This document shows positions 15,157-63,829 of a stretch of 64,000 nucleotides of DNA, piece by piece; the first letter of the stretch is position 1; each line of letters opens with the position of its first letter. A program made the translations under genes and the position numbers. The notes under the pieces were generated by a model. That model was not told the DNA's origin, ran no database searches, and worked only from the letters and a program-made list of their open reading frames with translations. Where the stretch lies: contig NC_034009.1 of NCBI RefSeq assembly GCF_000346465.2, positions 18,619,606-18,683,605 of the forward strand, given 5' to 3'. This DNA is from Prunus persica. Its lineage: Eukaryota; Streptophyta; Magnoliopsida; Rosales; Rosaceae.

Positions 15157-15180
15157 GTTTTTGAGGGGTATGTAAGAGCC

Positions 15181-27770: not shown

Positions 27771-27893
27771 ACCACTCAAGTAAGATTTAAGGGGGGGAAC
27801 GGACCTTATTCTTTCTTTTAGTTGGAAGAACAACTGTTAAGTATAATTTCCTATTCAATATGACTTCCTTATGGTTGGTGTAATTGGGGACTG

Positions 27894-28035: not shown

Positions 28036-28141
28036 TTGTTTATTTCCTTCGTAAGCAATAAACAATCAATACACATACAATAAATGTAAGATATACACGC
28101 AATAGAGAAGCAATATAGACGCAATAGACATGCAATATAGA

Positions 28142-29030: not shown

Positions 29031-29145
29031 GAGGTAGAATTCGAAAAGGACCCGTAGGTCTCTATTGTGTATTTACATGAGTTTGAAATTAGACATTCCC
29101 AAAACCTATTTAATCATCATGTACCTAAACCAAGTTCAACCAATA

Positions 29146-32100: not shown

Positions 32101-32427
32101 CCCAAAACGAAGCCCTGTGATCAAATAGAAATCCTGACGAGTGAACTGAGCAACGTCACACCCTATTAAGAAACTCAGTCCATCCAAGTCTTTTACACCC
32201 TGCCCTGCTACTCTACGCAACACAACCCCATGCACAATCTACCCGCTAAACTGAATCTTATTTATATTCAGAAGATGGCCAAAGCATGATGTCTTAAATT
32301 GTTCTAATTGTTCCGCACTCAACTTCGCTCGAATTGCAGCTAGAGATGAATTTGCATGTGAGCAGTTGTTTACCCATGATGAATATGCCTCTGACTCTGG
32401 CCATACCAGCTCCACGTTGGATCCCAT
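29146..32427 (-). pseudogene. DUF1985/Ulp1-type protease, copy A, broken
   Basis: The six-exon layout of copy B (48680-52035) is preserved. Exon 1 is 32427-31642 and the last exon ends at 29146. Two stops are evident: CAG to TAG just after IQFSG in exon 1 (about 32236), and CAA to TAA in the repetitive exon 3 (about 30740). Catalytic-domain exons are open and keep KHW, the YDSK aspartate and GDCG, with PQQSN upstream. The acidic repeat in exon 3 has fewer units than in B. Full-length protease cannot be made, though a C-terminal piece could be if an internal start were used. Confidence 0.9.
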
Positions 32428-33039
32428 TTCCTAAAATACAAGATGAAATAACGTGAACACATATACTACCACGTATTTGCACAATCACATTGGTATTTAC
32501 ACAACTAGTCAACCAGGCACATTATAAATTTTACAAAATACATGAGCATAGGGATTACTGATCACAGGCTTTAACATCATCAAAGCAATATGACAAATTT
32601 TGTGCAAATACCTGTTAATGCAATGATTATGTGAATTACAAATAATTTCATGTGTTTTATTTATGGATCCAAACTCCAATCAATGGTTGATGCATGAGTG
32701 AGTGTGAGTGCAATCTAGGCAAGTTCTGCACTTCACACACATGACAATTATTGTCATCTCATACACAACAAAAAATAAATAAATAAGAAATATAGTGGAA
32801 GGAAGCAAAGCAAAGCATCTACTCTGCTATCTGCTTGCTAAGCCATTGCCACATCCTTCTTTCTTTCTAGCTTTTTCTTCAGTCAGCCACAATCATCATA
32901 AATCAACCTTTATTTCAAATGCTTTGCACTTTTATTCATGAGTTTATTATTATTTGTTCTCATTTCTCATAGGCAAATTTAGTAACAAATGAAATAATAT
33001 TTATTTCAAAAATATATATAAATTCTAGCGCCAGAAAGG

Positions 33040-33640
33040 TACTCTGCACTCTGCACTGCTTCAAATGTGGAAGCTTTTGAGGGCCTCCTCCAATTCAACA
33101 CCATTATCTTATTCATATCATTATTAACATGTTATTGATATGTTATTGATATGTGATTGACTTGATTTTCATTCGTTTTTTAACATATACCCAAGCAAAA
33201 ATTAACATGCAAGTGAAGCACAAAGAAGAGATGCCAAATCCAACAACATCGATGGTACAAATTGGGGAAAATCGTTACTCTAACCCTAAACTCAAATTCC
33301 ATAAATTACTCATCAAATGATTTGCACTTCTATTCATGAGTTTATTATTATCTGTTGTCATGTTTCTCAGGCAAATTTAGTAACAAAGGAAATCATATTT
33401 ATTTCAAAAATATATATATTCTAGCGCCAGAGACATAATCTGCACTATGCACTGCTTCAAATGTGGAAGGTTTTGAGGGCCTCCTCCAATTCAACACCAT
33501 TATCTTATTCATATCATTATTGACATGTTATTGACTTGATTTTCATTCTTTTTTTAACATATACCCAAGCAAAAATTAACATGCAAGTGAAGCACAAAGA
33601 AGAGATGCCAAATCCATCAACATTGATGGTACAAATGGAA
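33040..33640 (-). repeat. ~380-bp direct duplication in the Ulp1 upstream region, copy A
   Basis: The block holding TCTAGCGCCAG, GGCCTCCTCCAATTCAACACC and the AAGCACAAAGAAGAGATGCC stretch occurs twice (about 33027-33260 and 33420-33640). The same duplication is present in copy B (about 47520-48120), so it is ancestral to the family. Confidence 0.75.
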
Positions 33641-33992
33641 CCTACCACTTCCAACGAATACGGCTTCTCTCCTTCCCCTTCCACTGCTTCGCCCCTTCAC
33701 TGTTTTGGAATCCACACCTTTGCCCCTTCTACTCAAAATAAATACTTTTTCAGGGTCTGGAGAACGGAGTGGCTTCAACCGTTGCCTTCAACCGTTTCTC
33801 AGAGATATGGGTTTTAGAGAGATGAGTTTTTTATGTTCAAACTTCGAACTTGCCTCTTCTTCTTCTTTTTTGGACGTGCTAGATATTCAATTCGGGTTTG
33901 GGTTCCTCACCTACCCGATTGTAAAACTTTATCTCAATTCTCCCCAGCCCTTGGATTGATCTGATGACTATAAAGTGAACCCCTTATAACTT

Positions 33993-34020
33993 ACCCCTTA
34001 TAACTTTCCACTCATTATAG
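33993..34020 (-). repeat. Terminal inverted repeat, Ulp1 side, copy A
   Basis: Inverse of 15129-15156 with two mismatches. On this side the core AGTTATAAGGGG is present twice in tandem, 14 bp apart, unlike the transposase side. Confidence 0.9.
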
Positions 34021-34028
34021 TCTAAGCG

Positions 34029-34037
34029 ATAGCAAAT
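34029..34037. repeat. 9-bp target-site duplication, right of MULE copy A
   Basis: ATAGCAAAT, identical to 15112-15120. Confidence 0.9.
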
Positions 34038-41360: not shown

Positions 41361-41910
41361 AGAGCACTTCCAGCAGTTTGTTCTTTGTCATGATAAGGGT
41401 CAGAGCTAAGACAGCTACTATTCACGTGAATAGTGGCTGCCTTTGCAAAAAGTTGTGATGTTTTCACTAATTGTCATGGCAACAACTATTTACATGAGAT
41501 ATGAGGTGAGAAATTTGTATAGAGTTTTGGTGTGGGAAGTGAAAACTATGACTAAGTATTTATTTATTTTTAAATGCAACAACTATTCACATGAGATATG
41601 AGGTGAGAAATTTATATAGAGTTTTGGTGTGGAAAGTGAAAACTATGACTAAATATTTATTTTTTTTAAAATCTGAATTTTTTTTGTATTTTTTTTATAA
41701 AAATTTTGTTGCTAACATCATCGCTGACGTCAGCAAACCAGGGCTTGAACTAGGGTTGATCTTGCCTGAGGGCTGGCCTGGTTTCGTGGGCCCCACCTTC
41801 TACCAGGGCTAGCCCTTGCTGTTGAAAACGTTTTTTGACCCAACCCCATCCCGCGCGCCCCCCCGCCCCGTGCGGCGCCCGAGCCCAGCCTTAGCTGCTG
41901 GAAGTGCTCT
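41361..41910. mobile_element. MITE with AGAGCACTTCCAGCAG terminal inverted repeats, 550 bp
   Basis: The left end AGAGCACTTCCAGCAG is repeated inverted at the right (CTGCTGGAAGTGCTCT). The interior is unusual: a two-fold ~100-bp tandem repeat (41477-41678) and a very GC-rich 3' part (41845-41885). No coding capacity. A related right end occurs at 63845-63976. I could not fix a target-site duplication, so the superfamily is open. Confidence 0.7.
41477..41678 (+). repeat. ~101-bp tandem repeat, two units, inside the MITE
   Basis: The block ACATGAGATATGAGGTGAG...GAAAACTATGACTAA occurs twice with few mismatches, separated by an AT-rich spacer. Confidence 0.85.
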
Positions 41911-47014: not shown

Positions 47015-47023
47015 GTTTTAAGT
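47015..47023. repeat. 9-bp target-site duplication, left of MULE copy B
   Basis: GTTTTAAGT, repeated exactly at 63821-63829. Confidence 0.92.
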
Positions 47024-47031
47024 CGCCAAGA

Positions 47032-47059
47032 CTATAATGAGTGGAAAGTTATAAGGGGT
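47032..47059 (+). repeat. Terminal inverted repeat, Ulp1 side, copy B
   Basis: Begins CTATAATGAGTGG, with the AAGTTATAAGGGGT core followed at once by a second AGTTATAAGGGG copy. The outermost eight bases, 47024-47031 (CGCCAAGA), resemble copy A's same end (CGCTTAGA) but not the opposite end. Confidence 0.9.
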
Positions 47060-48679
47060 AAGTTATAAGGGGTTCACTTTATAGCCATCAGATTAATCCA
47101 AGGGCTGGGGAGAATTGAGTTAAAGTTTCACAATTGGGTAGGTAAGGAACCCAAACCCGAATTGAATATCCAGCACGTCCAAAAAGAAGAAGAAGAGGCA
47201 AGTTCGAAGTTTGAACAGAAAGAACTCATCTCTCTAAAACACAGAGGTCTGAGATACCCAATGAAGGCAACGGCTAACGACAGTTGAAGGCAACGATTCG
47301 CCACTCCGTTCTCCAGACCCCGAGAAAGTATTTATTTGGAGTAGAAGGGGCAAAGGTGTGGATTCCAAATCAGTGAAGAGGCGAAGCAGTGGAAGGGGAA
47401 GGGGAGAAGCTGTATTCGTTGGAAGTGGTAGGTTCCATTTGTGGAGCAAAGAAACAAAAAGACCCCACACAGACACCTTGCAATAACCAGCATTTGGTGA
47501 GTAATTTATGGAATTTGAGTTTAGGGTTAGAGTAATGGTTTTCCCCAATTTGTACCATAAATTTTGTTGGATTTGGCATCTCTTCGTTGTGCTTCAGTTG
47601 CATGTTAATTTTTGCTTAGGTATATGTTAAAAAAAGAATGAAAATCAAGTCAATAACAAGTGAATAACATGTCAATAATGATATGAATAAGATAATGGTG
47701 TTGAATTGGAGGAGGCCCTCAAAACCTTCCACATTTGAAGCAGTGCATAGTGCAGATTAAGAAGAGGCGCTAGAATATATATATATATATATATTTTATG
47801 AAGTAAATATGATTTCCTTTGTTACTAAATTTGCCTGAGAAACATTTGAACAGATAATAATAAACTCATGAATAGAACTGCAAAGCATTTGATGAGTAAT
47901 GTAAGGAATTTGAGTTTAGGGTTACAGTAATGGTTTTCCCCAATTTGTACCATCAATGTTGTTGAATTTGGCATCTCTTATTTGTGCTTCAATTGCATGT
48001 TAATTTTTGCTTGGGTATATGTTAAAAAACGAATGAAAATAAAGTCAATCACATGTCAATAACATCTCAAAACCTTCCACATTTGAAGCAGTGCAGAGTG
48101 AAGAGTACCTCTCTGGCACTAGAATTTATATATTTTGTGAAATAAATATTATTTCATTTGTTACTAAATTTGCCTATGAGAAATGAGAACAGATAATAAT
48201 AAACTCATGAATAAAAGTGCAAAGCATTTGAAATGAAGGTTGATCTATGACGATTGTGGGTGACTGAAGAAAAAGGTAGAAAGAAAGAAGGATGTGGCAA
48301 TTGCTTAGCAAGCAGATAGCAGAGTACATGCTTTGCTTTGCTTCCTTCCACTATATTTCTTATTTATTTATTTTGGGTTGTGTATGAGATGACAATAATT
48401 GTCATGTGTGTGAAGTGCAGAACTTGCCTACATTGCACTCACACGAGTATGGATCCATAAATAAAACACGTGAAATTGTTTGTAATTCACATAATCATTG
48501 CATTAACAGGTATTTGCACAAAAATTGTCATATTGCTTTGATGATGTTAAAGCCTGTGATGAGTAATCCATATGCTCATGTACTTTGTAAAAGTTGTAAT
48601 GTGCCTGGTTGACTAGTTGTGATTGTGCAAATACGTGGTAGTATATATGTTCACGTCATTTCACATTGTATTTGAGGAA
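47060..48679. other. Upstream region of the Ulp1-type gene, copy B
   Basis: Non-coding, with a direct duplication of ~400 bp (GTAATTTATGGAATTTGAG and TTTCCCCAATTTGTACCAT recur near 47500 and 47900). An AT-dinucleotide tract at 47775-47793 follows GGCGCTAGAA. Small ORFs here are not conserved between copies. Confidence 0.55.
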
Positions 48680-51600
48680 ATGGGATCCAACGTGGAGCTG
48701 GTATGGCCAGAGGCAGAGGTATATTCGTCACGGGTGAACAACTGCTCACATGCAAATTCATCTCTAGCTGCAATTCGAGCGAAGTTGAGTGCGGAACAAT
48801 TAGAACAATTCAAGACATCATGCTTTGGCCATCTTCTGAATATAGATAAGATTCAGTTTAGCGGACAGATTGTGCATGGGGTTGTGTTGCGTAGAGTAGC
48901 GGGGCAGGGTGTGAAAGACTTGGATGGACTGAGTTTCTTATTAGGGTGTGACGTTGCTCAGTTCACTCGTCAGGATTTCTGTTTGATCACAGGGCTTCGT
49001 TTTGGGGAAGTGCCTGAAGTTTCCAGTGGAGAGAGTAATGAAATCAGACTTCAGAAAAGATATTTTATAGACGAAGGAATTACATGCAATGCTTTAGAAG
49101 AAGCATTTGTGAGGTGCACAGAGGAAGATGACATCTACAAGCTAGCTCTTGTTTACTTTGCTGAGTTAGTGGTTTTGGGAAGGGACAAACATTTGAACAT
49201 CAATCTAAATTACCTGACCCTTGTAGAGGACTTGGATGCGTTCAACAGGTATCCGTGGGGTTCGGTGTCCTTTGACAAAACCCAAGACAGTCTATTTTCT
49301 GCACCAACAAAGTATGTGAAAAGCTTGGAAAATGAAGAGGGAAGAGGGAAGGGGAAAAGTAAGGTAACGGGAACAAGCCGGAGAAATGAGAAGGGCAAGA
49401 AGGATAAGCATGGTGAAGCGCAAAGGAGTGGCTGGAGTTTTAAAGGTTTCACGTATGCTTTCCAGGTACATGGTAATAATGTTCATGTCAGTTATGTTTT
49501 GTTTTTCTTTAAAACATAAATAATGACTTTTGTCCTGTGAATTGTGTAGATTTGGGTATATGAATTAATTCCTAGAATGGCGGACCTGAATTACTGCAAG
49601 GTTGTTGATCCGACTGCTGTCCCGCGTATTTTGCGATGGAGAACTACTACGTCTGTTCCAGAGATGAGAAAGTTGAACAATTATTTTTTCCAGAGCAAAG
49701 AGGTTTGGTTTGCAGCCCTTAGAACTATTGATAAGATTGAATGAAATTATGAATTAGAATGATTTAATATGACTCTTGTCTGTATTCTGAAACAGTCAGT
49801 TCAGTTGCGGGTGCTACGTCCAAGTGAAGAGGAAATGAGACAGCCATATTGGAGTTGGCCACAGGATCGCCCTGCTGTTGTCTCGGCAGAGTCAATTCCT
49901 TCTTCATGTGGTGATCTTGATGAGTTGAACAAGGTGGTAAGCTTGTTGAGGTCCGAGTTGTTTCAAGTAAAGCGGGAAAAAGACGTCCTTCACTTAAAGG
50001 TCATACGGATGGAAAAACTGTTGGACCAATGTTTAGGTCCTCAGTTTGAGCAGGAAGTAAGGAGGGACCTAGCTTTACTGAAACAGAGGACGAATCGTTG
50101 TGTCGTCTCACATCTATTTAAGGGATATGGGGAAATGGATGACATTCAATGGGATGAAGGGCCAAGTAACAGAAATGAGGGAGAGGAAAAAGAAGATGAA
50201 GGGATTGAAGGGGGTGAAGGGCCAAATAATAGAAATGAGGGAGCACATAAGGAAGAGGAGGGGATTGACGGAGAGGAAAAGAAAGAGGAGGGGATTGAAG
50301 GAGGTGAAGGGCCAAGTAATAGAAATGAGGGAGAGGAAAAGGAAGAGGAGGGGATTGAAGGGGGTGAAGTGCAAGGAAAACCAAGTGAGGTAGATGAAGG
50401 GCAAAGGAAAAGAAGTGAAGGAGAGCAAGTGCAAGTAAAAAGTAGCAAAGGAGAGGAAGCCCAAAGACAGAGCAGTGAGGGAGAGGAAGTGAAAAGAAAA
50501 AGCAGTAAGGGAGAGAAATTGCAAAGGAAAAAAAGGGAGGGCAAGGAAGTGAAAACACAAAGAAGTGAGGAAAAGGAAGTGCAAAGAAACGAATGTGAGA
50601 AAGAAGATAATGAAGTTATGTTGCTTGGGGGTGACATTGGCGAGAGCACGGAGGGGACACTGCTCGAGTTTACTGTCGGGGACATTGATTTGGATGAACC
50701 TACAGCTGTGCTATCTCAGTTGAACGTGTGGTTGAATGATAAAGGTAAAGCTCTGGCACAAGGGGTCCAATTACGAAAAAGGAAGAGGATCATTCCTTTG
50801 TGGAAGATCGTTGAAGGCAGTGAATTGGTTCCAAAAACTGGGGCACAGACAACCGGACTGAAGATGTTAGACCCAATGAAGGCGATTCCGCATGATGATC
50901 TGGTGAAATTGCTGAAACTTTGTTGGGAATGGCGCCAGGACCCAAAGTAAGTCCCTTGCAATTATAAGATAGAAGCATGACTGTATATAATTTTTTATAT
51001 ACAGTGTTCTAAAACTGTTTTATATTCATAGTTTGGTGATGCAATTTGGCAACGTGGAAGCTGAGATTGAATTCTTCGCTTCCCTCGTGAAAGCTGATGG
51101 TTGGCTGAAAGGAGATGTAAGTGTAATTGATTATGCATTTGTTTTAATGTACATACATTATGAGAATGACAAGAAAAACATGTTGCAGCACATTGATTTG
51201 GGGTTGTATCTCATCCGGAAGCGACAACAACAATTGGAGACAGATTCGGTAGAAGTAGCGGACTGGACAACGACCGATGTTTTTTTTATGGTATGTATCG
51301 GCCTTCACCAAGTGCCGTTAATAATTACACATTTTCCATACACACACTAGTGGAGGTGTTTAAGCATTGATTGTTTTGTATTTCACAGAATCACATTAGT
51401 ACTTGCTTTGCGGATAATAAAAGAAAAAAACAGCAGCTTGGGTGGAAAATCAGAAAAAGTTTACTAAACGTTGTAAATGGGAAGGTTCCTCCGTGTGGGT
51501 TGGATTGGCAGACCGTCTATAAGGTGTATACCCCATTTATGTTGACGAAGTACAAGCATTGGGTGGCTGTAATGATTGATCTGGTATTGTGTGAAATCAA

Positions 51601-52035
51601 AGTGTACGATTCAAAGGTTTCACTAATTCCAGATGACATCGTAAAGGAAGAACTCGGCCCGCTATCAATTACGCTTCCAAATCTTCTCAACACCATCGAC
51701 TTTTATGAAGAAGGTGTTTATGCAAACAATTGCAGCCGAGATTGGTGGTGTCCGTGGCCAATAGAGCGTGTGGATGTTCCACAACAGTCTAATGAGTAAG
51801 CACAACTTGCAATTTAATTTTATTACTTTCAATTGTCAATTACGTTAGAATGTCATTAGTTTAATTGATCGAGTTCTTGTTTTGCTTCAGAGGCGATTGT
51901 GGCATGTTTGTGTTAAAGTACATTGAGCTTTTCAGCGCTAAGCTTCCGTTAGCTACTTGCACCTCGCACAACATGCCTTTTTTTCGGTTGAAATTGGCTG
52001 CGGAGATAACAAGGGGAGATGCTTACTTCCCATGA
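48680..52035 (+). CDS. DUF1985/Ulp1-type cysteine protease, six exons, copy B
   Basis: Exons 48680-49465, 49550-49702, 49796-50946, 51032-51290, 51389-51795 and 51891-52035 join in frame to 966 residues. Residues ~35-200 resemble DUF1985 (CFGHLL..., FLLGCDVAQFTRQDFCLITGL). A W-x-F-KGF segment and IWVYELIPRM follow. Exon 3 begins with a coiled coil and then has a long E/G/K-rich tandem repeat (50157-50560). The C-terminus is a C48 (Ulp1) peptidase with H840 (KHW), D857 (VYDSK), C922 (GDCGMF) and oxyanion Q916 in PQQSNEGDCG, the spacing of SUMO proteases. Such enzymes cleave SUMO or a related modifier. Ulp1-like genes are known MULE cargo (Kaonashi-type). The gene is convergent with the GRF gene. 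The start is the first ATG of the conserved MGSNVELVW, shared with copy A. Substrate is unknown. Confidence 0.9.
50157..50560 (+). repeat. In-frame acidic/basic tandem repeat in Ulp1 exon 3
   Basis: Units of roughly 20 residues of the form GPSNRNEGEEKEEEGIEGGE are followed by shorter K/S/E-rich units. Copy B has at least one more long unit than copy A. The repeat produces spurious serine/leucine/phenylalanine-rich ORFs on the opposite strand. Confidence 0.85.
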
Positions 52036-52379
52036 TATTGGTTGAAGATGACAAATGGTACATGAGAAGGTTTTGGGAATGTCCATTCTCAAACTAATGT
52101 AAATACACAATAGAGACGTACGGGTCCTTATCGAATTCTACCGCTAACTCCTTCATGACGTTTACATGTTTGTTAACCAAACTGCATTGAATTGGAATTT
52201 TAAGACTGCATATGTAAATTGGGATTTGAAGATGGCTTTTTAAGTGTATTACATCATTGCAAAGTGATATGTCATTGTTGATGCAAGCCACCATTAATCG
52301 CAATGTGTTGCATCATAATAGGTGTCTAAACATGCGAAAGGTTTTCCGCAGCTCAGTAGCATCAAAGTAGAAACAAAGA

Positions 52380-52800
52380 CAATATACACAAAATCAACAT
52401 ACATATCACAAACGCACCGACAAGCAATACACACACAACAGACAAACAATATACACAAACTTGGCCTGCCATATACAGAGAATAAATATGCAATATACAC
52501 ACAGTAGACATGCAATATACACACAATACTCCCTTAACACACACAATAGACATGCCCTTGTCATTGTTGATGCAATATACTTGGGAATGACAACCATAGG
52601 GAAGTCGTATTGAATAGGATATTAAACTTAACAGTTGTTCTTCGTACTAAAAGAAAGAATAAGGTTCGTTTCCCCCCTTCTTTCTTACTTGAGTGATACT
52701 TGTGGCCCCAATAAACATCCAAATGTGGGGCAATCATATTCCATATACATGCAGCAAACTGTCAATAAACCTTCAATAAACATTCAATATCGTTTCTATA
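52380..52800. repeat. TATTG/CAATA motif arrays between Ulp1 and GRF genes, copy B
   Basis: CAATATACACACAATAGACATG-type units (52380-52560) and CAATAAAC units (about 52705-52790) correspond to the larger arrays of copy A at 27340-28035. Confidence 0.75.
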
Positions 52801-52914
52801 ACATGCGAAATACATGCAGTTACGAAATATTACAAAATGGGTTTAGGGTCTCATTGGTGGTGCGTGCAACATGTCTTGTGCGGGAGAACTTTCACAATCT
52901 TTTAAACCGTGCAG

Positions 52915-53311
52915 TTAAATGATCATTAAAAGAACAAATAATATGACAATTGATACAACTAATAAAACTAATACCAAGTCCTTAATGGACTTCAGCATGT
53001 TCAGCACTCTAGCATCATACGTGTCATCTTGATGTTCTGCTTCAGCGGAGGTTACATCAACCCATTCGAATCCATTGCAACTGGTGGCTCCCTAATTGCA
53101 GGCATCATATATGGAATATAATTCTGTCAGAGTTAGACATAGGTTTTTTTTCACCCACATACATATTCTTTAAATTAAAACTTACATAGGAGGTTAGACA
53201 CTTCCAGAATGGCTTCCCTCGATTTTTTTCAGATTTTGAAACCCGAAGCACCATTGTAGCTCCACAATACTGACACCTCTTTGTTTGAGCGGGAGATGAA
53301 GATGAAGACAT
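52915..53311 (-). CDS. GRF-type zinc-finger protein with C-terminal membrane helix, copy B
   Basis: Two exons, 53311-53186 and 53091-52915, joined in phase 0 (TAT|GTAAGT, TTAG|GGAGCC), give 100 residues. A GRF-type zinc finger spans ~10-55, with ligands C13, C16, C38 and C47 and the closing GFEWVD. The intron falls between the third and fourth ligands. Residues 81-100 are almost entirely V, L and I, a predicted membrane helix. Small plant GRF proteins with this layout are common and their function is largely unknown; GRF fingers in other proteins bind single-stranded nucleic acid. The gene shares a ~700-bp divergent promoter with the F-box-like gene and is convergent with Ulp1. It is present in both copies, so it is cargo rather than a chance insertion. 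Confidence 0.85.
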
Positions 53312-53913
53312 GTTGAATCTTCTCAGTTGTACCTCTTCTCACTCAGATCTTCTCACTGAAACCTCTTCGGACTCATACCTTCTCACTCATAGTTGTCATT
53401 CATACCCCTTCACTCATAACCCTAAACTTGTCACTCAGCTCTCTCTCATCTCTGCCCAAATCGAGTTATATTTAATTTTTTTGGGATCATTTGGTGGGTT
53501 GGTCACGATGTCGACACCTGTACCGTCTGCATTGTGACATCTTTTAGCCCAAATTTTATTCATTTATTTATATTTCATTAAGGCAACTAGTTGGATACGA
53601 ATCCGTCATTAGTAGTTCCATTTTAATAACATTACTAGGGGTAGTTGGGTATGGGAAAATGAAAAAGTATATGATGGGACCTTCTGTCACTAGTCAGTAA
53701 TCCATCACATTTGTATCAATGAATTTGATAGTGGGATAAACCCAAAAATGGCTATGCAAATAGCCATTTAATTAACTTTTTGACTGTCTGACTCTGTATG
53801 CACCGTTATGACGTTTTCCCTTCTTTTGTCTTAAGTTTTAATTCACTGGGGTTCAGTTTCTTTCAAAATGGTCAACTTGGAAAAACCCCAACTGGAAACA
53901 CCTTTTCAAAACA

Positions 53914-53921
53914 CTATAAAC
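53914..53921 (+). promoter_or_regulatory. TATA box of the F-box-like gene, copy B
   Basis: CTATAAAC; in copy A the equivalent reads CTACAAAC, so it is weakened there. Confidence 0.5.
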
Positions 53922-54007
53922 AGAGGCTAAAACAAAACGTGTACCCCAAATATTATCATTTATCCCCTCTGCCACTCCTCAAATCGTTCCATTCCAAAAA
54001 CTTTTCA

Positions 54008-54790
54008 ATGAATTCGAAACACTTCACTACAGTCGGAGGAAAGAGAAGGAAGCATGTCCATTTCGATATGCCCGAAGCTTTCATCCCGGAGTCCGCTTGG
54101 TTTCAAGTCATGTTATACGTGGCAAAAGAATCATCGGAAGATCTCTTCCGTATGGCATCTGTGTGCCGATTGTTCCGAACTTTGGCAAACAGTCCACAAG
54201 TGTGGAACACCATTTCAATGGCAAAGTACCCATACGATCCTATCTGGTACGGTGCCAGACCTGCGGTCCAGCATTTCTTGCAACAATGCAGGGCTTGCAA
54301 TAACCCTGAGTCCATATTTAGAGAAGCATTCCAAGATTTTTTCAGGCACGGTAAGGTGGAAGCGTTGTATGAGATGCGCATTGCAGCCACGGCAGGCCAT
54401 ATGGAAGCGGCATATGTAGTTGGACTACTTGGTATGTCCGGAATTGGTCAGTCAAAAGAGGATGCATTACAATTCTTGTGTTCTTTGAATCAACGTAACA
54501 ACATTGATATGAAAGGAACCAGGGATGCTTTAACAGGAAGATGTCGCGGAGCATTTGTTGCAAGACATATCGTAGATATGTTTGACTATGGGAAGATTCA
54601 GTTCAATCGGTGCAGTGCTTGTAATAACAATGAATGGTATTTTGTTATTCCAGGCTGGCCTAGTGAAGACAAGATAAATCATGCGTTGTGGACTTGTTGC
54701 AACCGATGCAAATGGCACCGTGAGAGTATTTTTTGGTGCAAAATCCTGCGTGAGTATGTTGTGCGAGGGAATCACGTATTTTTGCATTAG
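54008..54790 (+). CDS. F-box/Sel1-like protein with CxxC C-terminus, copy B
   Basis: A single exon of 260 residues. Residues ~27-72 resemble the degenerate F-box of plant proteins like At1g67623/At2g35280 (VMLYVAKESSEDLFRMASVC, then LANSPQVW). Residues ~85-160 show the CNNPESIFREAF and AATAGHMEAAYVVGLLGM helices of the same family, related to Sel1-like repeats. The C-terminus has C202xxC205 and C230/C231xxC234, suggesting a zinc ribbon. F-box proteins recruit substrates to SCF ubiquitin ligases; whether this divergent F-box binds SKP1 is not shown. The start MNSKHF is the ATG conserved with copy A; upstream in-frame codons are not. A TATA box (CTATAAAC, 53914-53921) lies 87 bp upstream. The gene is convergent with X across the ~503-bp array. 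Confidence 0.8.
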   Translation: MNSKHFTTVGGKRRKHVHFDMPEAFIPESAWFQVMLYVAKESSEDLFRMASVCRLFRTLANSPQVWNTISMAKYPYDPIWYGARPAVQHFLQQCRACNNPESIFREAFQDFFRHGKVEALYEMRIAATAGHMEAAYVVGLLGMSGIGQSKEDALQFLCSLNQRNNIDMKGTRDALTGRCRGAFVARHIVDMFDYGKIQFNRCSACNNNEWYFVIPGWPSEDKINHALWTCCNRCKWHRESIFWCKILREYVVRGNHVFLH

Positions 54791-55434
54791 TTTTAGTACG
54801 AATTTACGGTTTTGATGCATTGTGGACTTGCTTCTCTTCACTTCTAGGTTGGCTGGCTACGTTATACCTAGCTCAGTTTAAATGTTGTTCAAATGTTGGT
54901 ATTTTGTCATAAACCGTTTTATATATAAATGTATAATATTTATTATATAGCGGAATGATTACTTACATCATAGACGGCTAGGAATGACATTTTACTGACA
55001 CAGATATTTTGCTCACCGACCCCAATCTTCATATTTGGTAAACCAAAAGTCATGCATGGAGTAAATAGGTGTCTTTTCACCAGTGCTTGGGAATGACATT
55101 TTCCCACTTAGCATATCCGAAAGGATTTGGTTACACGTTTCTTAACCTAGGGGGTTGAACAGTGAATGACGTAGACTATTTTTTTGTGTGGAAGGAGTAC
55201 AATGGATGACTTGTATATTTCCATATTATGTTTCAAAACATCCCTTCAACCTAAAAAATAAAAAAATTAACAAATTGAAGAACAGAGAAACCGATGAGCA
55301 CTACAAATGGCCTATTCGCACGGAAAATAAAATTGTTTTAAACAAGTTGGACTAAATATAATTAACAAATGGACAGCCTAAAAAGTAATATCATAATAAT
55401 TATAATAATTGTGGATAAATAATAATAAAATACT

Positions 55435-56830
55435 AATGTAGCATAACCATTAAACAGGGAATGCAGTAGGAAGATGAAATCGCAATAAGTTCGTAGAAAT
55501 TTTCAGATCGTTTTTCTAATTTTTGTGTATTTAGTTATGAATTTTCCAAGAAAAAAGGTAATAAAATAATAATTTAGGGTAAAATGGGAGGATGTGGCCA
55601 TGTTCGGTAACGTACACTTGTGCAAGTAGTCAAAAGTGACTGGCTGAGATCGCGCCAGGTGTCATATTCTTGTTAATTTTGGATTCTTTTGTTCAAAAAT
55701 CTTTGAAACTAGGTAATAAATAGTAGGAAAATCGTAAAAATGGCCCAAAAATTACTCCGGCCTACTTGTGACGTCATAAAACTAGGAGAACCTATAAATC
55801 ATTCGTCTCGCAATGAAATAATCCAAATTGTGTTACATAACTCACTTTCCTCTTAACCCTAAGTATTGATGTTTGTTAACTTCAACTTGAATAACCTACT
55901 TCAACAAGCATCTCCCGTTAATGTTGGGAATTAATTTTACAAATGCGTAACAATGAATCGGAGAATTCAGCAACGGAGATGGAGTGTCAATGAGTTCGTA
56001 GCAATTTTCGGAAATAATTTTGAATTTTTGTGTATTTAGTTATGAATTTTCCAAGACAAAAGGTAATAAAATAATAATTTAGGGTAAAATGGGAGGATGT
56101 GGCCATGTTGACTGACGTACACTTGTGCAAGTAGTTAAAAGTGATGGGCTGAGATCGCGCCAGGTGTCATCTTCTTTTAAATTTTGGATTCTTTTGTTCA
56201 AAAATCTTTGAAACTAGGTAAAAAATAGTAGGAAAATCGTAAAAATGCCCCCAAAATTACTCCGGCCTACTTGTGACGTCATAAAACTAGGAGAACCTAT
56301 AAATCATTCGTGAAGCAATGAAATAATCCAAATTGTGTTACATAACTCACTTTCCTCTTAACCCTAAGTATTGATGTTTGTTAACTTCAACTTGAATAAC
56401 CTACTTCAACAAGCATCTCCCGTTAATGTTGGGAATTAATTTTACAAATACGTAACAATGAATCGGAGAATTCAGCAACGGAGATGGAGTGTCAATGAGT
56501 TCGTAGCAATTTTCGGATAATTTTTTTATTTTGTGTGTAATTAGTTCTGATTTTTGTAAGGAAAAGTAATAAAATAATAATTTAGGGTAAAATGGGAGGG
56601 TGTGGCCATGTTGACTGACGTACACTTGTGCAAGTAGTCATCAGTGACGGGCTGAGATCGCGCCAGGTGTCCTCTTGCTATTATTTTGGCTTTTTTAGTG
56701 CAACAATCTGTGGACATAGGTAATAAATTCTACGAAAATCCAAAAAATGCCCGGAAAATGAGAAAATGAAAATTATTTGTACATAACTCACTTTCCTCTT
56801 AACCCAAATTCACGTTAACACGTATATTTC
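55435..56830 (-). repeat. ~505-bp tandem array, about three units, copy B
   Basis: The unit marker CTCTTAACCCTAAGTA recurs with a ~505-bp period (about 55852 and 56357; the third is partial). Units share blocks with the four-unit array of copy A, including AGATCGCGCCAGGTGTC. Two units carry a perfect TGACGTCA (55769-55776, 56274-56281) about 20 bp before a CTATAAATC box. Confidence 0.9.
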
Positions 56831-57714
56831 GGATAATATTCGAAATATAATTTCTAATAATACAATATTTAGTTTCACTATATACAATAATATGTTTTGT
56901 TATAATAATGTACATAAAAAATAATTGCACATGCTTTGAAGCCATCATTGCAACTACGCCTAGAGCTTTGAAGACGTCAGTTTGTATTCAATAAGTTGTC
57001 CACATGCAACTGCACCTAGAGTTTTCAACACGTCAGAGGTATTCAAGAAGTTGTCCACATGCAACTGCACCTTGAGTTATTAACACGTCACAGGTATTCA
57101 ATAAGTTGTCCATTTGACGCCGCATTGGGAATCAGTAATATATTTTCAATCATGTCAAATCACATAAATAATGCCATACTTTTTCTCAATAACATCACAC
57201 AAGTGAAGCAAGTTTAAAACCCTTAGTGAATATTTGTCCTAGTCTATATGAGTGATTATATAATCAGTTGCATAATATTTTTTTCACAGTATATGTTAAC
57301 TTTGAGAGGGATTCCACAAACATAAAATATAAAGAAAGCAAGAAATAGTAGGAAATGAACCAGTACAAAAAACAATATATAAAGTGTACATAATAATTCC
57401 ATAACCTTGTCACAAACGCACTCACAAAAGCTTTTCCATAAACCTTGTCCTAACATATAATAAATAAAGGCAACATTGCATATGATGCAACCATGTTCAA
57501 ATCTGATAAGTGATCAAAAACAAATGGACATGGCAGCAACATATGGCTGAAGTAGATGGGCTCTTTGCATCTTCTGTTTTCGTAATTAAAGACATCAAAA
57601 TATTAAGGTTTAAATCTTCCATAGTAGTTAGCATCAAAATAGCTTTGAAGCAGAGTGTAACCAAAATTCCAATTCCACTTATTTGCCTCTGCTCAAACAC
57701 GAGAACCAAAATGG
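56831..57714. other. 3' flank of gene X and spacer, copy B
   Basis: Non-coding. It contains a short triplicated block: AAGTTGTCCACATGCAACTGCACC and close variants, about 56995-57115, spacing ~50 bp. Copy A has two such blocks at about 22390-22500. Confidence 0.5.
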
Positions 57715-58203
57715 TTACTTCCCTTGCTGAGTATATTTGGTGACGTCGGAAACGGTAATAGATGACCAATCAAACCCGGGTACGACGAGTTTTGCATAGG
57801 ATCGGAAGTAGTCGAATCCAGCTTGCATCACACGCTTCTTTGACTCCACTACATTAGATGAGTTCTTGTATTTTTGAACAGCTACACTCCGAAGTCGTTT
57901 GTGTCTACGCTTCATGCGCTGCAACTTCGCCCTATCCAGATTGGCCTGCCTTTTGTCATCTTCAATTTGGCCTTCCACAAATTCCAAACGTGCCCTTGCC
58001 CTTTGGATTTCATCACCAAGTTGAAGATGCCTGTCCTTCCAAAAAGCAACAACTCTTTCAGACTCAAAACTTCCAACAAAATGGTCATTCTGTCTAGCAA
58101 TGTGACATTGCTTGTCTGGTGACTCACTTGCGTGTCGAAGCCGGTCTTTGTTTGGAGGGGTGTTTATTATGCTCACATCAAACTTGGTTGTGCTTATGCT
58201 CAT
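57715..58203 (-). CDS. Gene X: coiled-coil MULE cargo protein, copy B
   Basis: 162 residues. Residues 47-125 form a long charged coiled coil; 129-137 read GFDYFRSYA and 144-146 FDW. The same tail order (GFDKFRAFA, then YDW) occurs in gene Y, which is divergently transcribed from the other side of a ~465-bp promoter, so X and Y are distant paralogues. I recognise no named domain; charged coiled-coil proteins of this sort occur in other plant transposons and their function is unknown. The start at 58203 is chosen because homology with copy A begins within a few codons of it and a TATA box lies ~95 bp upstream; the open frame extends further upstream but crosses the promoter. Copy A's X is also intact, which implies retained constraint or recent decay elsewhere. 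Confidence 0.78.
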   Translation of the reverse strand: MSISTTKFDVSIINTPPNKDRLRHASESPDKQCHIARQNDHFVGSFESERVVAFWKDRHLQLGDEIQRARARLEFVEGQIEDDKRQANLDRAKLQRMKRRHKRLRSVAVQKYKNSSNVVESKKRVMQAGFDYFRSYAKLVVPGFDWSSITVSDVTKYTQQGK

Positions 58204-58295
58204 TCTTTGGGGGGAATGAGTTTGTTTGCTTCTTCTGAGAGTATCGGTAGATGGAGACAGATTCGGTGGAGGAGTGAGTTTTGTGTGGAAGGAGA

Positions 58296-58304
58296 TTTTA
58301 TATG
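58296..58304 (-). promoter_or_regulatory. TATA box of gene X, copy B
   Basis: CATATAAAA on the minus strand, ~95 bp upstream of the chosen ATG. Confidence 0.5.
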
Positions 58305-58334
58305 AAAGGGGTGATAGTAATACCAAGAAAAGGG

Positions 58335-58348
58335 TTCCCGCCAAAAAA
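58335..58348 (-). promoter_or_regulatory. E2F-type site of gene X, copy B
   Basis: TTTTTTGGCGGGAA on the minus strand, ~35 bp upstream of the gene X TATA box. It is conserved in copy A. Confidence 0.6.
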
Positions 58349-58536
58349 TATTTGGTTGACAAAGTAGAAATTATTTTTTGGTCTGATACAATCTAAGTTT
58401 AATCCTAACTAGTTTGGTTGAGTTAACTAAGTAGATGTCACTTCCATTGACTTTGTTTCAACCACTATCAGTGGTGTCAGGAGAGTGTGAGGTTGACATG
58501 CTTGAAAAGCAAAACCTGACACCTATTTTTAAAAAA

Positions 58537-58549
58537 TTCCCGCCAAAAA
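58537..58549 (+). promoter_or_regulatory. E2F-type site of gene Y, copy B
   Basis: TTCCCGCCAAAAA lies ~40 bp upstream of the gene Y TATA box. It mirrors the site of gene X. Confidence 0.6.
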
Positions 58550-58588
58550 GTACATATGTTGACTACACACAAGCTTTGGTATGTTGGT

Positions 58589-58597
58589 CTATAAACC
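58589..58597 (+). promoter_or_regulatory. TATA box of gene Y, copy B
   Basis: CTATAAACC. It implies transcription starts near 58620, which favours the ATG at 58669 over the one at 58627. Confidence 0.55.
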
Positions 58598-58668
58598 TAT
58601 GTTCCCTTTCTCAAACGAAATTGCATATGCAATCCTCATCCTCCCAAAACAAAGAGGATTATTCAAGC

Positions 58669-59250
58669 ATGTCAACCTCTTCAGGCACCAACAACACAAT
58701 CGAAGATGACAAATTGGAGTGGCAGGTTCTATTTCCACATTGTACTCGCCGACCCCTTCCTTTTTCAACATCATTTGGGAGTGAGGGGGACTCCGATGAT
58801 CCATTACAGGCAATACATGCAGTCAGTGGCAAGCTGGATTATAATTCCAGACTGATCAATTCATGGCACGAGAAATATGTTGAAGACGAGGCAATTTTGG
58901 CTGATCTTAACATTAGGGTGAACAAAGCGTTATCCCAAAAGAACAAGTACTTGAAGCTGAGTCATAGCAGGAAGCTGAAAGCTGAGGAGTTGGATACAGT
59001 AATGAATGATGAAATCAAAGGTTGTTTGATGAACCATATGCGATGCGAAAAGCACCATACTGAACTGGAGTTGGCATTCAACGAAGGATTCGACAAATTC
59101 CGAGCATTTGCGGCAACTACTCATACAAGTTATGATTGGAACTATGTGTCCCCTGATGCTGTGAGAGAGATACTAGACGATGGGGGTGACATGAATGAGC
59201 ATAAGCACGTCAAAGCTGCTCGGAAGAAGCCGACCGATACGACTAAGTGA
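58669..59250 (+). CDS. Gene Y: coiled-coil MULE cargo protein, copy B
   Basis: 193 residues. An acidic/serine-rich N-terminus contains GSEGDSDDP (37-45). A helical, charged middle spans ~60-135. The conserved tail GFDKFRAFA (140-148) and YDW (155-157) is shared with gene X. The end combines an acidic DDGGD with a basic KAARKK stretch. The ATG at 58669 is preferred: the TATA box leaves almost no leader for the in-frame ATG at 58627, and copy A has a stop between the two. No named family recognised. The gene is convergent with the transposase. A second copy of its 3' end lies at 59666-59790 and might serve as an alternative last exon. Confidence 0.78.
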   Translation: MSTSSGTNNTIEDDKLEWQVLFPHCTRRPLPFSTSFGSEGDSDDPLQAIHAVSGKLDYNSRLINSWHEKYVEDEAILADLNIRVNKALSQKNKYLKLSHSRKLKAEELDTVMNDEIKGCLMNHMRCEKHHTELELAFNEGFDKFRAFAATTHTSYDWNYVSPDAVREILDDGGDMNEHKHVKAARKKPTDTTK

Positions 59251-59665
59251 TTGCGGCTACCGCTGTTCAGTTGGTTGAGGGTGACCGTGGTATTGCACAT
59301 ATACTCCCTTAATGTCAGTATCTAACTTAAAATAACACAAATATCAGTTTCATTTGCTTGATATATAATTATTGGGACTATGTATTGCAAGTCATCATGT
59401 GTTATAATGTCTAACATTATATTTTGCAAATATGGAAATATTATTCAAGAAGCAGTCAATATCACAGAAAGCCGGGAATCAGTAAATGCTCCTTATCATG
59501 TCCATTTACATTAAAGAGCTGGAGTACTAATGTGTTAAAAAAAAAATTGACACGTGAGTCATAAGTTACATAACATGTGCTATACATTGTTTACTGAATG
59601 GTTTATGGTTTATTTATATATAATAAAATTCCAAATATTGCTGAAGATTTATTTCGTGTATATCA

Positions 59666-59790
59666 CTAGGGATATGAGTGGCCATAAGCATGTGAGACCT
59701 GCTAAGAAAAAGCTGACGAGTACGACCCAGTGATTGTGGCTACCGTTGTTCAGTTGGTTGGGGAGATCGTGGTATTGCTATGAGGAAGCA
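59666..59790 (+). repeat. Duplicated 3' end of gene Y, copy B
   Basis: Resembles 59190-59300. It reads MSGHKHVRPAKKKLTSTTQ-stop, against MNEHKHVKAARKKPTDTTK-stop in gene Y, and is preceded by a possible acceptor (CACTAG). The same duplicate exists in copy A. Confidence 0.6.
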
Positions 59791-60430
59791 CATAATATGT
59801 TTTGCAATCAAATGTTATTTTGTGTGTGGAATTATGAGTATTTATGTAAGTTAGTGTACCCTTTAATATTTTTCACCTATGTATCGAAATGTAATTAGCT
59901 GCAATGTTATGTTTTTTTTTTACCCGCTGGTTTCTATTTGCTCTGTTCCAACAAAGTGCTTCGAGTATCCTTCACTTACAAAAGTGTACAAAATCGTGCC
60001 CCTAATAACCAGTCGGAAAAAGTGGCTGCTGCTGGAAATGATTACTGGTAATGGAAACAACAGCTGGCTGCTGTAATTGCTGCATTACCCTGAGGAATTG
60101 AAAAATGAATCTCTGTTAAAACAAATTTCACCCTAAACTGCCCATTTTACATGGTAAGAGTCATTGCTTCTTCACATAACTACAAATTTCAAACTTGATC
60201 AAATGTCTATGAAAATTTATAAATAGGGAGAAGACGTAAAATTAACATGTCTCCAAATGTCTTGGAAGAATGAAACCAAGCAAATTTTCATTTCAATTAC
60301 CAGTGGACATAGTAAGAGCTCATCGGTGGACATGAACAAAAACACAATAACATTCAAAAACTGAATCTATAAAACTTCACTTGATCATTAATCTTCATAA
60401 CAACCACATTTCGTCTAATACAAATATCAA

Positions 60431-62751
60431 TCATTCAGTTGGTCTGTGCATCCTGTCAAAATCATCGAATAATGGGTCACTACGATGTATTGGAGTTGAT
60501 TCGTCATTGTTCGACGGTGATGTCCTGCATAAACATCAAACACAAGCACATAAAAATTTTACCTTTTCATATTTTAGATATTATTACAAATAGTGGTAGC
60601 ATCTTACGGTATGTTCAAGGCTGGGCATTGTCTTCTATCATGACCAATGTGTCCACACTCCCGACAGTGTCTAATCCCTCGCTTCATTGCCTTTTCCTTT
60701 GCTCCCGTTATTCCTTTCGACCTTCCTTTGCACCTCACTCTCTTAGGGTCTTTCATATATTGTGTTTGAGAGCTGGACCCTTCAACTTCGTTATTACTTG
60801 GTCCATCCTTCAGCAACTTCAACTTCACCTGCAAACTTTTTAGAGTCTCTGACAGTAGCTCACATCCTTCTTCACTCATTAATGCATCCTCAACCACATC
60901 TGAAGCAAGTCGAGACATTGTACTCCGCTTTATTAGAAGGCCAGGATCTGCACAGTCTTTAATTTCGTTGCCATTTGCATCTGACACCAATCCACATTTC
61001 GCAGTTTTCTTCCACCTCTTCAAAATATATTTATCGGGCATATATTCAATCTGGTCCCTTCTGAACAATGCTAGGATGTGCTTGCAAATAATTCCAACAA
61101 ATTCAAATCTTTTGCAGCTACACGATGCGTGGTCAGAATCTTTGACATATACGACTTCTGCCACTCTTGTTTCCCAATTTTTCCTTTCGCTCACGTTGAA
61201 CACAACTTTACACGCATCCTCTGTTTTGAGCTCTAGGAAACATGCTGTACTTTGTATTAGTTCTTGCTCAAACTTTTGAAACATTGTCCTTGTGTACAAG
61301 GTAGCCATTTGTTTGTTCATTGGCATCGGTAGAAGACATTGAGCCACTTCAAATGCATCTACGTGATCAGCAACTAACTCTTTTTCACGTTGATGAGAAA
61401 GTGCCCTCTCAAATCGTATTATGAAATCCATAAACGAATTTCTCCTTGATATGTATTGCTTGAAAAAACCATGAGAACCTTCCGCTCTTTGGCTGCTTGA
61501 CATTCCAGCGGCAAAAAATTGTCGTGCGTAGGCTGGAACCCAAGATTCCCTTAAATCAAACATTGAACTTAGCCATGGATGGTCAGTCAAACCAGCCTTT
61601 GTAACCACAATATTCCATTTTGCATCAAACTCATCCTTATTGTCAGTATCCCATATGGCTTTCTGAAATTCAGGCCAATACTCCTTATAAGCGTCACGTG
61701 GTAACTTAACAGAGAACTTTGATGTGATGTGCCATATGCAAAGTCGATGAAATGTACTCGGGAAGGCTATTGAAATCGCTATGGCCATTGCCGCATCTTG
61801 ATCTGTAATGATCGTTTTAGGTTCCCCACCTGGCATGGCTTTCTTAAACTCCTCAAACATCCAAACAAACGACTCAGTCGTTTCCTTGCTCAAAAATGCG
61901 CATGCTAACACAATTGTCTGACCATGGTTATTAACTCCCAACATTGGTGCAAATGTCAAGTCGTATCGATTCGTGTTGAATGTGGTATCGAATACAACAA
62001 CATCTCCATAAAACCCATACGCCCGTCTAGAAGTTGCATCTGCCCAAAAACATCGACTAAACCTGTCATGCCCATCTCCCTCAATCTTGAAATAAAAAGC
62101 CTCATTTGTTTTCTGTTCAGCCATAAAATACTCGGTCACTAGTTCAACATCGTGGTTCCTCAGCTTCCCATTCACACTACATTCAAGATTGTAGATATCT
62201 TTTTTGATAAAACCGATTTTATCCATTCCTCCGGATTGCACCTCGAATATACTTACCTTCTGATGAATGGGAATATTAACTGAACCCAACTGTTTTGTGA
62301 GTACTTTTGTAGAATCTGAAATATGACGGTGTGATCTCAATAAATGCATTCTTTCTGAGGGTGTCATCTTATGATTGTGTCCCTCTGCAAAAAGAGAAAT
62401 GGTATACTTCTTGCTCCCATTTGTCTTCACAACCACAATCTTTGCTTTGCAATTGCATCTACTTATTCCCCGTTGTCTTTTTCTCTCCCGAGTTTCATCC
62501 TTCCTGTATGCACCTTGTTTGCAACATACAAATTCTTTCCTCAAAATCTCTTTCTTATTTTTCCCCCAAAAGCTAGAATGAAGTCGAATACCAAAGCCAG
62601 CCAAGAATGCATATCTATTATAGAAATTGTAAACGAGGTCAAGCGAGTCAAACTTCATCCCAACTGCTGGTGTTTCCTCATTTCTTACTTCAGGAATATA
62701 AACCCTCCCATTAGCTGTTGCACATTCATCACTCTCTGAGCCCCCAGACAT
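60431..62751 (-). CDS. FAR1-type MULE transposase, intact, copy B
   Basis: Two coding exons, 62751-60608 and 60524-60431 (CC|GTAAGA, TGCAG|GACA), give 745 residues. Residues ~33-130 are a FAR1-type zinc DNA-binding domain (C76/C77, C99/C101, H125/H127). The MULE catalytic core follows, with D255 (VVVFDTTF), D317 (ITDQDAAM), HRLCIWHI and E424 (SSQRAEGSHGFF). A SWIM finger has C544, C546, C556 and H558, and a zinc knuckle C696/C699/H704/C709 precedes a 30-residue acidic tail in exon 2. All motifs needed for a DDE transposase are present. The family is the source of the host FAR1/FHY3/FRS regulators. It acts in the nucleus on the element's ends. A 5' UTR intron is suggested upstream. The gene is convergent with gene Y. 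Confidence 0.95.
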
Positions 62752-63784
62752 TTTATCTACGTATATTATTGATCCACTTCTATATTACTGCATAGCAATT
62801 ATTCATTCATTAATCAGTCATTACTGCATCACAACATATCAATGCATTCCACTTACACAAAACATTGCCCAAATTGACACAAAATACGCATAGCCTAACT
62901 TCCGATTACACAAAACACAAGCAAAATTTCATACAAGTTACGTCATCTCTTGGGAAATAATCTGGTCAAAATAACATTAGAACCAACATGTTCAACTAAG
63001 AACACAAATGTAATTCAAACCACCAATTACAGAACTTCACCCAATATCCTCTCCAACTGCTTACTCCTAACGTCATTAAGCCTAAGTTTAGGTTCTTTTA
63101 CCTACATTTCATAATTTTCCACCCCGACCAACAACAATGAACTAAGTATATTGAATATTCATAAGAAAATGACACATTATTGATGCCACAAATGACGAAT
63201 TTCCCACCCTCACAAAAAATAAACCTAACCCAATAAAATCAATCCAGCAAGTGAACTTACCTCTCAAAATCAATCGGGAGCTCTGAAGTCAGTCAGCTTG
63301 AAAGACTGTGGTGGAAATTAGAGAAGACTCTTTGGTATTTGAGACTCCATCTCTACCAAAATCGAGGAACAACTGCTGCTGCGGCTTCTAGCTACAAAAA
63401 CAGATAAGCTACTTTGCTTTCATCTGGAATCTTGTCAGCTGAATGAAAAGAGAAGGGGTTTTCACTTGAGCCATAGAATCAAAACAGGGCAACAGCTAGG
63501 TAAGAGCCATTCTTCGTAATACCCAGGATACTATAGATCGCAGGCCTCCCAACGAGCTAATGACAGTCGAGTGACTATAAGGTTTGGGAGATTTGGATCC
63601 TTCTAATTGTGGGTTTGCTTTACATTCAAAAAGAAAGGCTTCAGTTTTTCACAGAGAGGGAAAGAGGGGAACAACTGAAGTTGGGTTTCTAACGGGTTAG
63701 ATTTCAACCCGATTCTACATGCACCCTCTTTTAAAAACTCACCGTTGGATGAAATCCAACGGCTCTTACATACCCCTCAAAAAC
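62752..63784. other. Upstream region of the transposase, copy B
   Basis: Non-coding 5' UTR/intron and promoter, highly similar to copy A 15157-16235. It includes a two-fold AATGACACATTATTGATGCCAC-type repeat degenerate in B and clearer in A (15761-15810). Confidence 0.5.
63742..63762. promoter_or_regulatory. Subterminal hairpin, copy B
   Basis: CCGTTGGAT-GAA-ATCCAACGG is a perfect 9-bp stem with a 3-nt loop, 58 bp from the element end. Confidence 0.55.
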
Positions 63785-63812
63785 ACCCCTTATAACTTCC
63801 CACTCACTATAG
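63785..63812 (-). repeat. Terminal inverted repeat, transposase side, copy B
   Basis: Inverse of 47032-47059 with two mismatches; followed by AAGCTCTC up to the element end at 63820. Confidence 0.9.
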
Positions 63813-63820
63813 AAGCTCTC

Positions 63821-63829
63821 GTTTTAAGT
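63821..63829. repeat. 9-bp target-site duplication, right of MULE copy B
   Basis: GTTTTAAGT, identical to 47015-47023. Confidence 0.92.

Follow-up and report, generated by a model that had tools for sequence, protein, structure and literature searches.

The window analysed here, a 64,000-nucleotide stretch of the peach (Prunus persica) genome (NC_034009.1, positions 18,619,606 to 18,683,605), holds two copies of a large Mutator-like element (MULE). Copy B occupies 47024-63820 on the plus strand (16,797 bp) between identical 9-bp target-site duplications (TSDs), GTTTTAAGT, at 47015-47023 and 63821-63829, and is classed as a MULE by its transposase domain PF10551 (102.4 bits, Pfam). Imperfect subterminal inverted repeats of 28 bp, matching at 26 of 28 positions, lie at 47032-47059 (plus) and 63785-63812 (minus). 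Pfam matches and open frames place six genes in copy B, in the order U, G, F, X, Y, T on strands + - + - + -, just as a sequence-only reading of the locus had proposed. Copy A (15121-34028, minus strand, 18,908 bp; TSD ATAGCAAAT at 15112-15120 and 34029-34037) was said to mirror copy B; the gene plan is indeed the same and mirrored, but copy A has decayed, with F and T matching in pieces only. X of copy A is doubled in tandem (20527-20826 and 21068-21367, a step of 541 bp), while copy B has a single X. Perfect 9-bp TSDs, found at copies A and B and at both copies of the more distant family 4 described below, fit the MULE range of 8-11 bp. As copy B holds an open 726-codon transposase frame, it is not a Pack-MULE, which carries gene fragments without a transposase.

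Gene U (48680-52035, plus strand; exon joins predicted) comprises a DUF1985 exon (frame 48623-49519; PF09331, 61.5 bits), an acidic tandem-repeat exon (49763-50950) and two Ulp1/C48 exons (51371-51799 and 51865-52035), across which PF02902 matches on the strand opposite to T. The linker consists of coding repeats of 30, 60 and 90 bp and includes a 154-amino-acid (aa) acidic stretch. The stretch around the catalytic Cys aligns to SENP2 (E 3.6e-5), and a search of PDB by sequence with the first Ulp1 exon gave no match. The Ulp1-type His, Asp and Cys contexts read KHWVAV, VYDSK and GDCGMF, of which we take the first two to be those of the His and the Asp. In these features U resembles the VANC proteins of Arabidopsis VANDAL MULEs, which are described as combining DUF1985 and DUF287 with variable regions that contain tandem peptide motifs, and as having target motifs that sit in tandem repeats of noncoding regions (PMC5735166); Ulp1-bearing VANC genes are termed KIUs (PMC13317346).

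The five other genes are smaller or more conventional. Gene G (52915-53311, minus) is a predicted two-exon gene for a 100-aa GRF zinc ribbon (PF06839), the first exon alone scoring 21.3 bits, under the cut-off of 25.9, and the sequence with the predicted intron removed scoring 32.6; its C-terminal hydrophobic segment looks like a membrane helix. Gene F (54008-54790, plus) encodes 260 aa with an F-box-like domain (25.5 bits), a TPR_27 domain (66.1 bits) and conserved C-terminal CxxC pairs, and had no match in PDB by sequence at E 0.1; long F proteins (260-261 aa) also occur in other Prunus. X (57715-58203, minus, 162 aa) and Y (58669-59250, plus, 193 aa) have no Pfam match and are paralogues of each other, as judged from their C-terminal 61 columns (hhalign probability 97.1%). 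Y has a conserved C-terminal motif and is predicted to form a long helix (45-151) followed by short C-terminal helices (mean pLDDT 76.8, pTM 0.35); a fold search of this model against PDB returned a single match, at E 9.5, and PDB by sequence gave nothing convincing. All 68 named homologues of Y, among 78 matches in total, are from Prunus, species other than peach included. Gene T (60604-62751, minus) is an open transposase frame with FAR1, MULE and SWIM domains, and its FAR1 DNA-binding domain (PF03101, 72.3 bits) would make it Jittery/FAR1-type; the MuDR-type domain PF03108, as expected of a VANDAL transposase, had no Pfam match in the copy B element. NCBIfam added nothing useful beyond Pfam.

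The sequence-only reading had every convergent gap built around a repeat array, which is true of the U/G and F/X gaps and not of the Y/T gap of copy B, where there is no tandem array. The short shared promoters that it placed in the divergent gaps correspond to spans between predicted ATGs of 697 bp (G-F) and 466 bp (X-Y). The F/X gap of copy B contains three tandem copies of an approximately 503-505-bp repeat (55472-56696), and that of copy A four copies of about 503 bp (22645-24628). It also contains three units of a 55-bp tandem repeat (56949-57112), each with an exact Arabidopsis VANC6 target motif, AGTTGTCC; the corresponding repeats of copy A (22393-22504) hold it too. Counting AGTTGTCC and AGTTGTAC together, copy B has four sites, of which three fall one to each 55-bp unit; copy A has two, both within the 55-bp repeat, and 28 kb of flank has one. 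These sites may be a second hint of VANC-type targeting, possibly a chance one.

The U/G gap carries arrays of the core CAATA at a pitch of 11 or 22 bp (52380-52789 in copy B; a larger array at 27394-28137 in copy A). In copy A, CAATA pairs spaced by 11, 22 and 33 bp number 34, 21 and 13, against at most 3 at each other spacing from 5 to 29 bp and 6 each at 30 and 32 bp; copy B has 3, 5 and 1 pairs at 11, 22 and 33 bp. The window contains 19 CAATA triples at 11-bp pitch (0 in 100 shuffles), and the genome 2,571 (1,241 + 1,330), compared with 36 (18 + 18) for the reversed pattern and 23 (16 + 7) at 10-bp pitch. Spacers between the cores are variable, with 48 distinct ones in 40 hand-picked matches. 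Roughly 100 triples listed in the first 4.9 Mb of contig C1 were grouped manually into nine places, four of which lie within 6 kb of a gene of the family.

How far this gene set extends was assessed by six-frame genome searches with each gene, the matches then being clustered; the resulting counts are lower bounds, since 62 of 713 transposase candidates were scored. At least 61 clusters have a transposase match, at least 57 of them at 80% identity or more, and among the matches listed 44 of these 57 family-1 clusters hold all six genes, one with two complete sets, so that most members do carry the cargo. Presence per gene was 47 (U), 48 (G), 51 (F), 55 (X) and 55 (Y) of 57, and many copies are decayed. 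Five of the 10 listed clusters that lack U have a U match within 30 kb, and are perhaps copies split by later insertions. Orientation is standard in 64 of the 65 listed clusters with at least three genes and a mirror image (Y- X+ F-) in the 65th. This constancy of set and orientation within family 1 is by descent.

We also examined distant families in the peach genome (loci L009-L028), of which family 3 has four copies and families 2 and 4 two each. All four family-3 copies keep the gene set and gene order of copy B, on strands U+ G- F- X+ Y+ T-, with proteins 26-54% identical to those of copy B and a transposase (47-49%) that aligns over the FAR1 part too; one of them, f3a, has TTCTTGATCA at either flank (read by eye). 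Family 4 has U+ X- Y+ T- (its X found by genome search, in an open frame), a MuDR-type transposase and inverted repeats of about 50 bp (read by eye), and its two copies, which lie between different 9-bp TSDs, share 99.2% identity across 15.5 kb. Family 2, read in the same sense, has U+ Y- X+, a RAD51-like gene (+) and T-, again of MuDR type, with X and Y flipped as a block. The transposases of families 2 and 4 contain PF03108; that of family 2 is 18.7% identical to T over 364 residues and that of family 4 has no match to it. Only the FAR1-type families 1 and 3 yielded F and G; a search at E 1e-3 detected neither gene in family 2 or family 4. In all four families U and T stand at the two ends, both reading inward, and X and Y accompany U. 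The RAD51-like frame (314 aa; L021:6425-7366, minus strand) is present in both family-2 MULEs, its counterpart at L018 being 99.7% identical; it looks XRCC3-like and may be a captured recombination gene.

Of two options named in an earlier account of such elements, one is that MuDR-like and Jittery-like elements each acquired Ulp1 independently (PMC2528002). The X/Y pair common to both transposase types argues against such repeated capture of Ulp1, and for common descent or the transfer of a U-X-Y module.

Selection was estimated by the NG86 method as the ratio of nonsynonymous to synonymous substitution (dN/dS). The intervals come from 60 or 200 bootstrap draws in which only codons were resampled, and are too narrow because the pairs share branches. 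Family-1 copies were hand-chosen from the match lists, those of subclade a for their open frames. The sets for X, Y and F comprised copy B and 10 others (8 of subclade a, B among them, and 3 of subclade b), the U set B and 9 others (7 of a, 3 of b) and the T set B and 6 others (4 of a, 3 of b). Between subclades a and b (dS 0.05-0.08) dN/dS was 0.33 for T (0.22-0.52), 0.46 for U (0.23-0.87), 0.68 for X (0.32-1.53), 0.73 for Y (0.35-2.01) and 0.84 for F (0.55-1.37). Within subclade a the ratios were 1.03 (U), 0.90 (F), 0.79 (X) and 0.39 (T), Y being undefined (dS 0); within subclade b, where several copies carry stops, they were 0.31 (U), 0.75 (F), 0.97 (X), 0.43 (Y) and 1.08 (T). Copy B was also compared with family 3 (four copies for G, F, Y and T, three for X and DUF1985), which gave proportions of nonsynonymous and synonymous differences (pN and pS) of 0.28-0.52 and 0.64-0.95 over all six genes, synonymous sites thus being at or near saturation; the largest upper bounds of dN/dS belonged to Y (0.68), X (0.61) and a 54-codon piece of U (0.60). 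Because the sequences were aligned by protein similarity, this comparison is biased towards conserved stretches, yet at this synonymous distance a frame evolving neutrally could scarcely be aligned, which points to long-term purifying selection on all six genes. Among the family-3 copies themselves, 30 of 39 ratios fall at 0.4-1.5 (range 0.15-4.16), as is expected of decaying copies. The sequence-only reading took ratios well below 1 as a sign of function, and that is what T and U show between subclades, and all six genes in the deep comparison; for X, Y and F the intervals within family 1 include 1.

It might be asked whether the alternating layout is itself the selected trait, with divergent promoters and convergent ends co-regulating the genes, as the sequence-only reading suggested when it judged so ordered a plan not to be random capture. 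With strands drawn at random, six genes would alternate strictly in 2 of 64 cases (0.03), which makes a single element weak evidence, and the repetition of the pattern in 64 of 65 clusters (the other being mirrored) reflects inheritance and not independent events. The shared genes of family 4 do alternate, as do those of family 2 if the RAD51-like gene is omitted; with it, the pattern of family 2 is interrupted. Since family 3 keeps set and order without alternation in four of four copies, we have dropped alternation as a selected trait and regard co-regulation by layout as improbable: the six-gene set is conserved, strict alternation is not. The part of the original suggestion that finds support is that the cassette does not resemble haphazard gene capture, as the set recurs in the 44 of 57 clusters and in family 3; selection for alternation is not supported, in view of the differing strands of family 3 and the flipped X/Y block of family 2. 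Passive, Pack-MULE-like capture, by which F, G, X and Y would be hitch-hiking host sequence without function in the element, would account for the family-1 ratios of F, X and Y, for the stops in many copies and for the resemblance of F to a host gene. It sits poorly with six proteins that still align where synonymous sites are saturated or nearly so, with X and Y beside U in all four families and with the CxxC pairs kept in F, and it seems to us quite unlikely.

The resemblance of F to a host gene deserves a closer look. TPR_27 has 74 matches in the genome, of which 67 coincide with an F place that has a further gene of the family no more than 16 kb away. The best match overall, at C1:10756779 (125.6 bits), is among the seven outside such places; its open frame, of 263 aa, encodes TPR_27 together with an F-box-like domain just below its cut-off, and we take it as the host gene. 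Of the remaining six, four share 40-49% identity with F and resemble relics of family 3, and two are weak. Between families 1 and 3 the F proteins share 38-44% identity, one fragmentary protein giving 31-34%, and the host protein is 22-28% identical to either; CxxC pairs are present in the host protein, in F of copy B and in f3a. These identities and the shared position fit a single capture before the families split. F was thus probably captured once from a host gene, before family 1 and family 3 diverged, an unrooted tree of the three groups also allowing two captures.

We favour, as the reading with a better than even chance, that this is a MULE whose six genes form one conserved set and whose U is a VANC-type protein that would bind the 11-bp-pitched CAATA arrays of its own element and remove host silencing. 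Both activities are inferred from the match of U to VANC in DUF1985, in the tandem-repeat region and in the noncoding motif arrays of its own element. Judging from sequence and from the Arabidopsis analogy, U would bind the CAATA arrays, whose pitch near one helical turn suits an arrangement of multiple U molecules along the same side of the helix, and would undo DNA methylation as Arabidopsis VANC does, while its Ulp1 part would act on SUMO-marked host proteins. X and Y, the paralogous pair beside U, may be partners of U or T. Two extra effectors would belong to the FAR1-type lineage: the F-box of F would recruit a host ubiquitin ligase, while G would supply a zinc ribbon that may sit at a membrane. 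Strand alternation would then be a by-product of a frame in which U and T lie at the ends and read inward, and not a conserved trait. VANC target motifs reportedly act by sequence, density and helical periodicity, and the domains of VANC are said to include DUF1985, DUF287 and Ulp1.

Several observations weigh against this reading. T is FAR1-type and not of the MuDR type of VANDALs. DUF287, which is shown in the VANCs of PMC5735166, had no match in the five U exon frames tested, and an AlphaFold model of DUF1985 came out at low confidence (pLDDT 39.1) and lends no support to DNA binding. The VANC21 motif YAGTATTAY has no occurrence in copies A and B. Family 3 has U, and none of its four copies contains a CAATA array of three or more units, nor does the window outside copies A and B; either the motif changed in family 3 or U is not the binder. 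A change of motif, as reported for VANC targets, may be the explanation, and is a weak point of the proposal; a search of family 3 for another 11-bp motif revealed none that was clear. Three further C1 array places, picked for having no family gene listed nearby, were viewed in 8 kb: one (L065) has a Y relative, and the other two (L064, C1:219000-226999; L066, C1:3761500-3769499) have no match to U, X, Y or T in that span and are perhaps non-autonomous elements. Finally, dN/dS of X, Y and F within family 1 is compatible with neutrality, as is that of U in the youngest copies (1.03).

The arrays could also be read without U as their binder. Transposases commonly bind repeated subterminal sites, and in families 1, 2 and 4, where CAATA arrays occupy gene gaps (up to 17 units in family 2), the arrays co-occur with X and Y as well as with U, so that X, Y or the transposase might bind them, for transposition or transcription and not for anti-silencing. 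We consider this rather doubtful, as the arrays are internal, in gene gaps, and the same motif serves elements with very different transposases, FAR1-type in family 1 and MuDR-type in families 2 and 4. That they are plain minisatellites arising from replication slippage, with no binding protein, would suit the copy A arrays, which are locally expanded with longer units repeated. It is very unlikely given a core and a pitch that stay fixed while the spacer varies, that recur in three diverged families, and that favour 11 over 10 bp by 2,571 triples to 23. Returning to U as the array binder, a bolder version, which we hold less likely than not, is that U, X/Y and the CAATA arrays constitute a portable anti-silencing module serving MULEs with two very different transposases, and that in one lineage this module grew into a SUMO-plus-ubiquitin weapon: U would find the arrays and strip SUMO, and the captured F-box protein would turn a host ubiquitin ligase on the silencing machinery.

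The peach element is a six-gene variant of the VANC/KIU kind of elements. With the VANDAL/VANC system of Arabidopsis, as far as the published accounts go, it shares the MULE type, a DUF1985 gene, a tandem peptide-repeat region and noncoding tandem repeats of short motifs; VANDAL21 has the open reading frames (ORFs) VANA, VANB and VANC and the motif YAGTATTAY, which the peach element lacks (PMC5735166, PMC10398659). It differs further in its FAR1-type transposase, in having no DUF287 match and in the addition of F and G. VANDALs have no terminal inverted repeat (TIR) or a short degenerate one, from which the imperfect 28-bp subterminal repeat of the peach element (26/28) may set it apart. The Kaonashi (KI) MULEs of Arabidopsis, with KIU, and the ULP-bearing MULEs of melon and rice are described with an Ulp1 gene in reverse orientation to the transposase, as in peach; KI-MULEs have three genes including Ulp1, compared with six here, among them F-box, GRF and FAR1-type transposase genes (PMC2528002, PMC13317346). 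Some Jittery-like families carry a ULP coding sequence downstream of the transposase ORF, and the grapevine Jitvine-1 and Jitvine-2 are long Jittery-like MULEs (11.9 and 14.4 kb) that we liken to the peach element by description; the passages describing them mention no F-box, GRF or X/Y pair (PMC2528002). Abermu of barley resembles the peach element in being a MULE with additional ORFs, of which one runs on the opposite strand; it has three ORFs to the six here, and its authors call it a type not reported before (PMC9168764). CitMule of citrus has a FAR1, MULE and SWIM transposase and 9-bp TSDs in three of four copies, like the peach element, and is unlike it in being described as one 5-exon transcript (PMC4334395).

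FaSt, a 349-bp Prunus Mutator miniature inverted-repeat transposable element with an 82-bp TIR and a 9-bp TSD, is set beside the peach element by description only. Our search of the literature on Prunus MULEs, Ulp1-bearing Prunus elements and MULEs with a GRF zinc finger returned nothing on this element. Polerovirus P0 is a parasite F-box silencing suppressor that directs a host ubiquitin ligase against a silencing factor; it is viral, and the likeness of F to it would lie in the F-box role only, with no sequence relation and with the function of F itself being inferred.

The MULEs described in the accounts cited here have one to three genes, whereas in peach six have been kept together to or near synonymous saturation. 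This suggests that plant anti-silencing can be a module which goes with transposases of different types. The element also looks like a transposon in which an F-box gene, probably captured once, has been retained as a working part. U and the 11-bp-pitched CAATA array are a candidate protein-DNA pair, which could provide a sequence-specific DNA-methylation eraser beyond Arabidopsis.

Outside the two MULEs, positions 1-4000 of the window have a GC content of 0.54, compared with 0.32-0.42 elsewhere, and minus-strand open frames of 156-323 aa. Between copies A and B, at 41468-41661, lies a 97-bp tandem duplication whose units are 91% identical.

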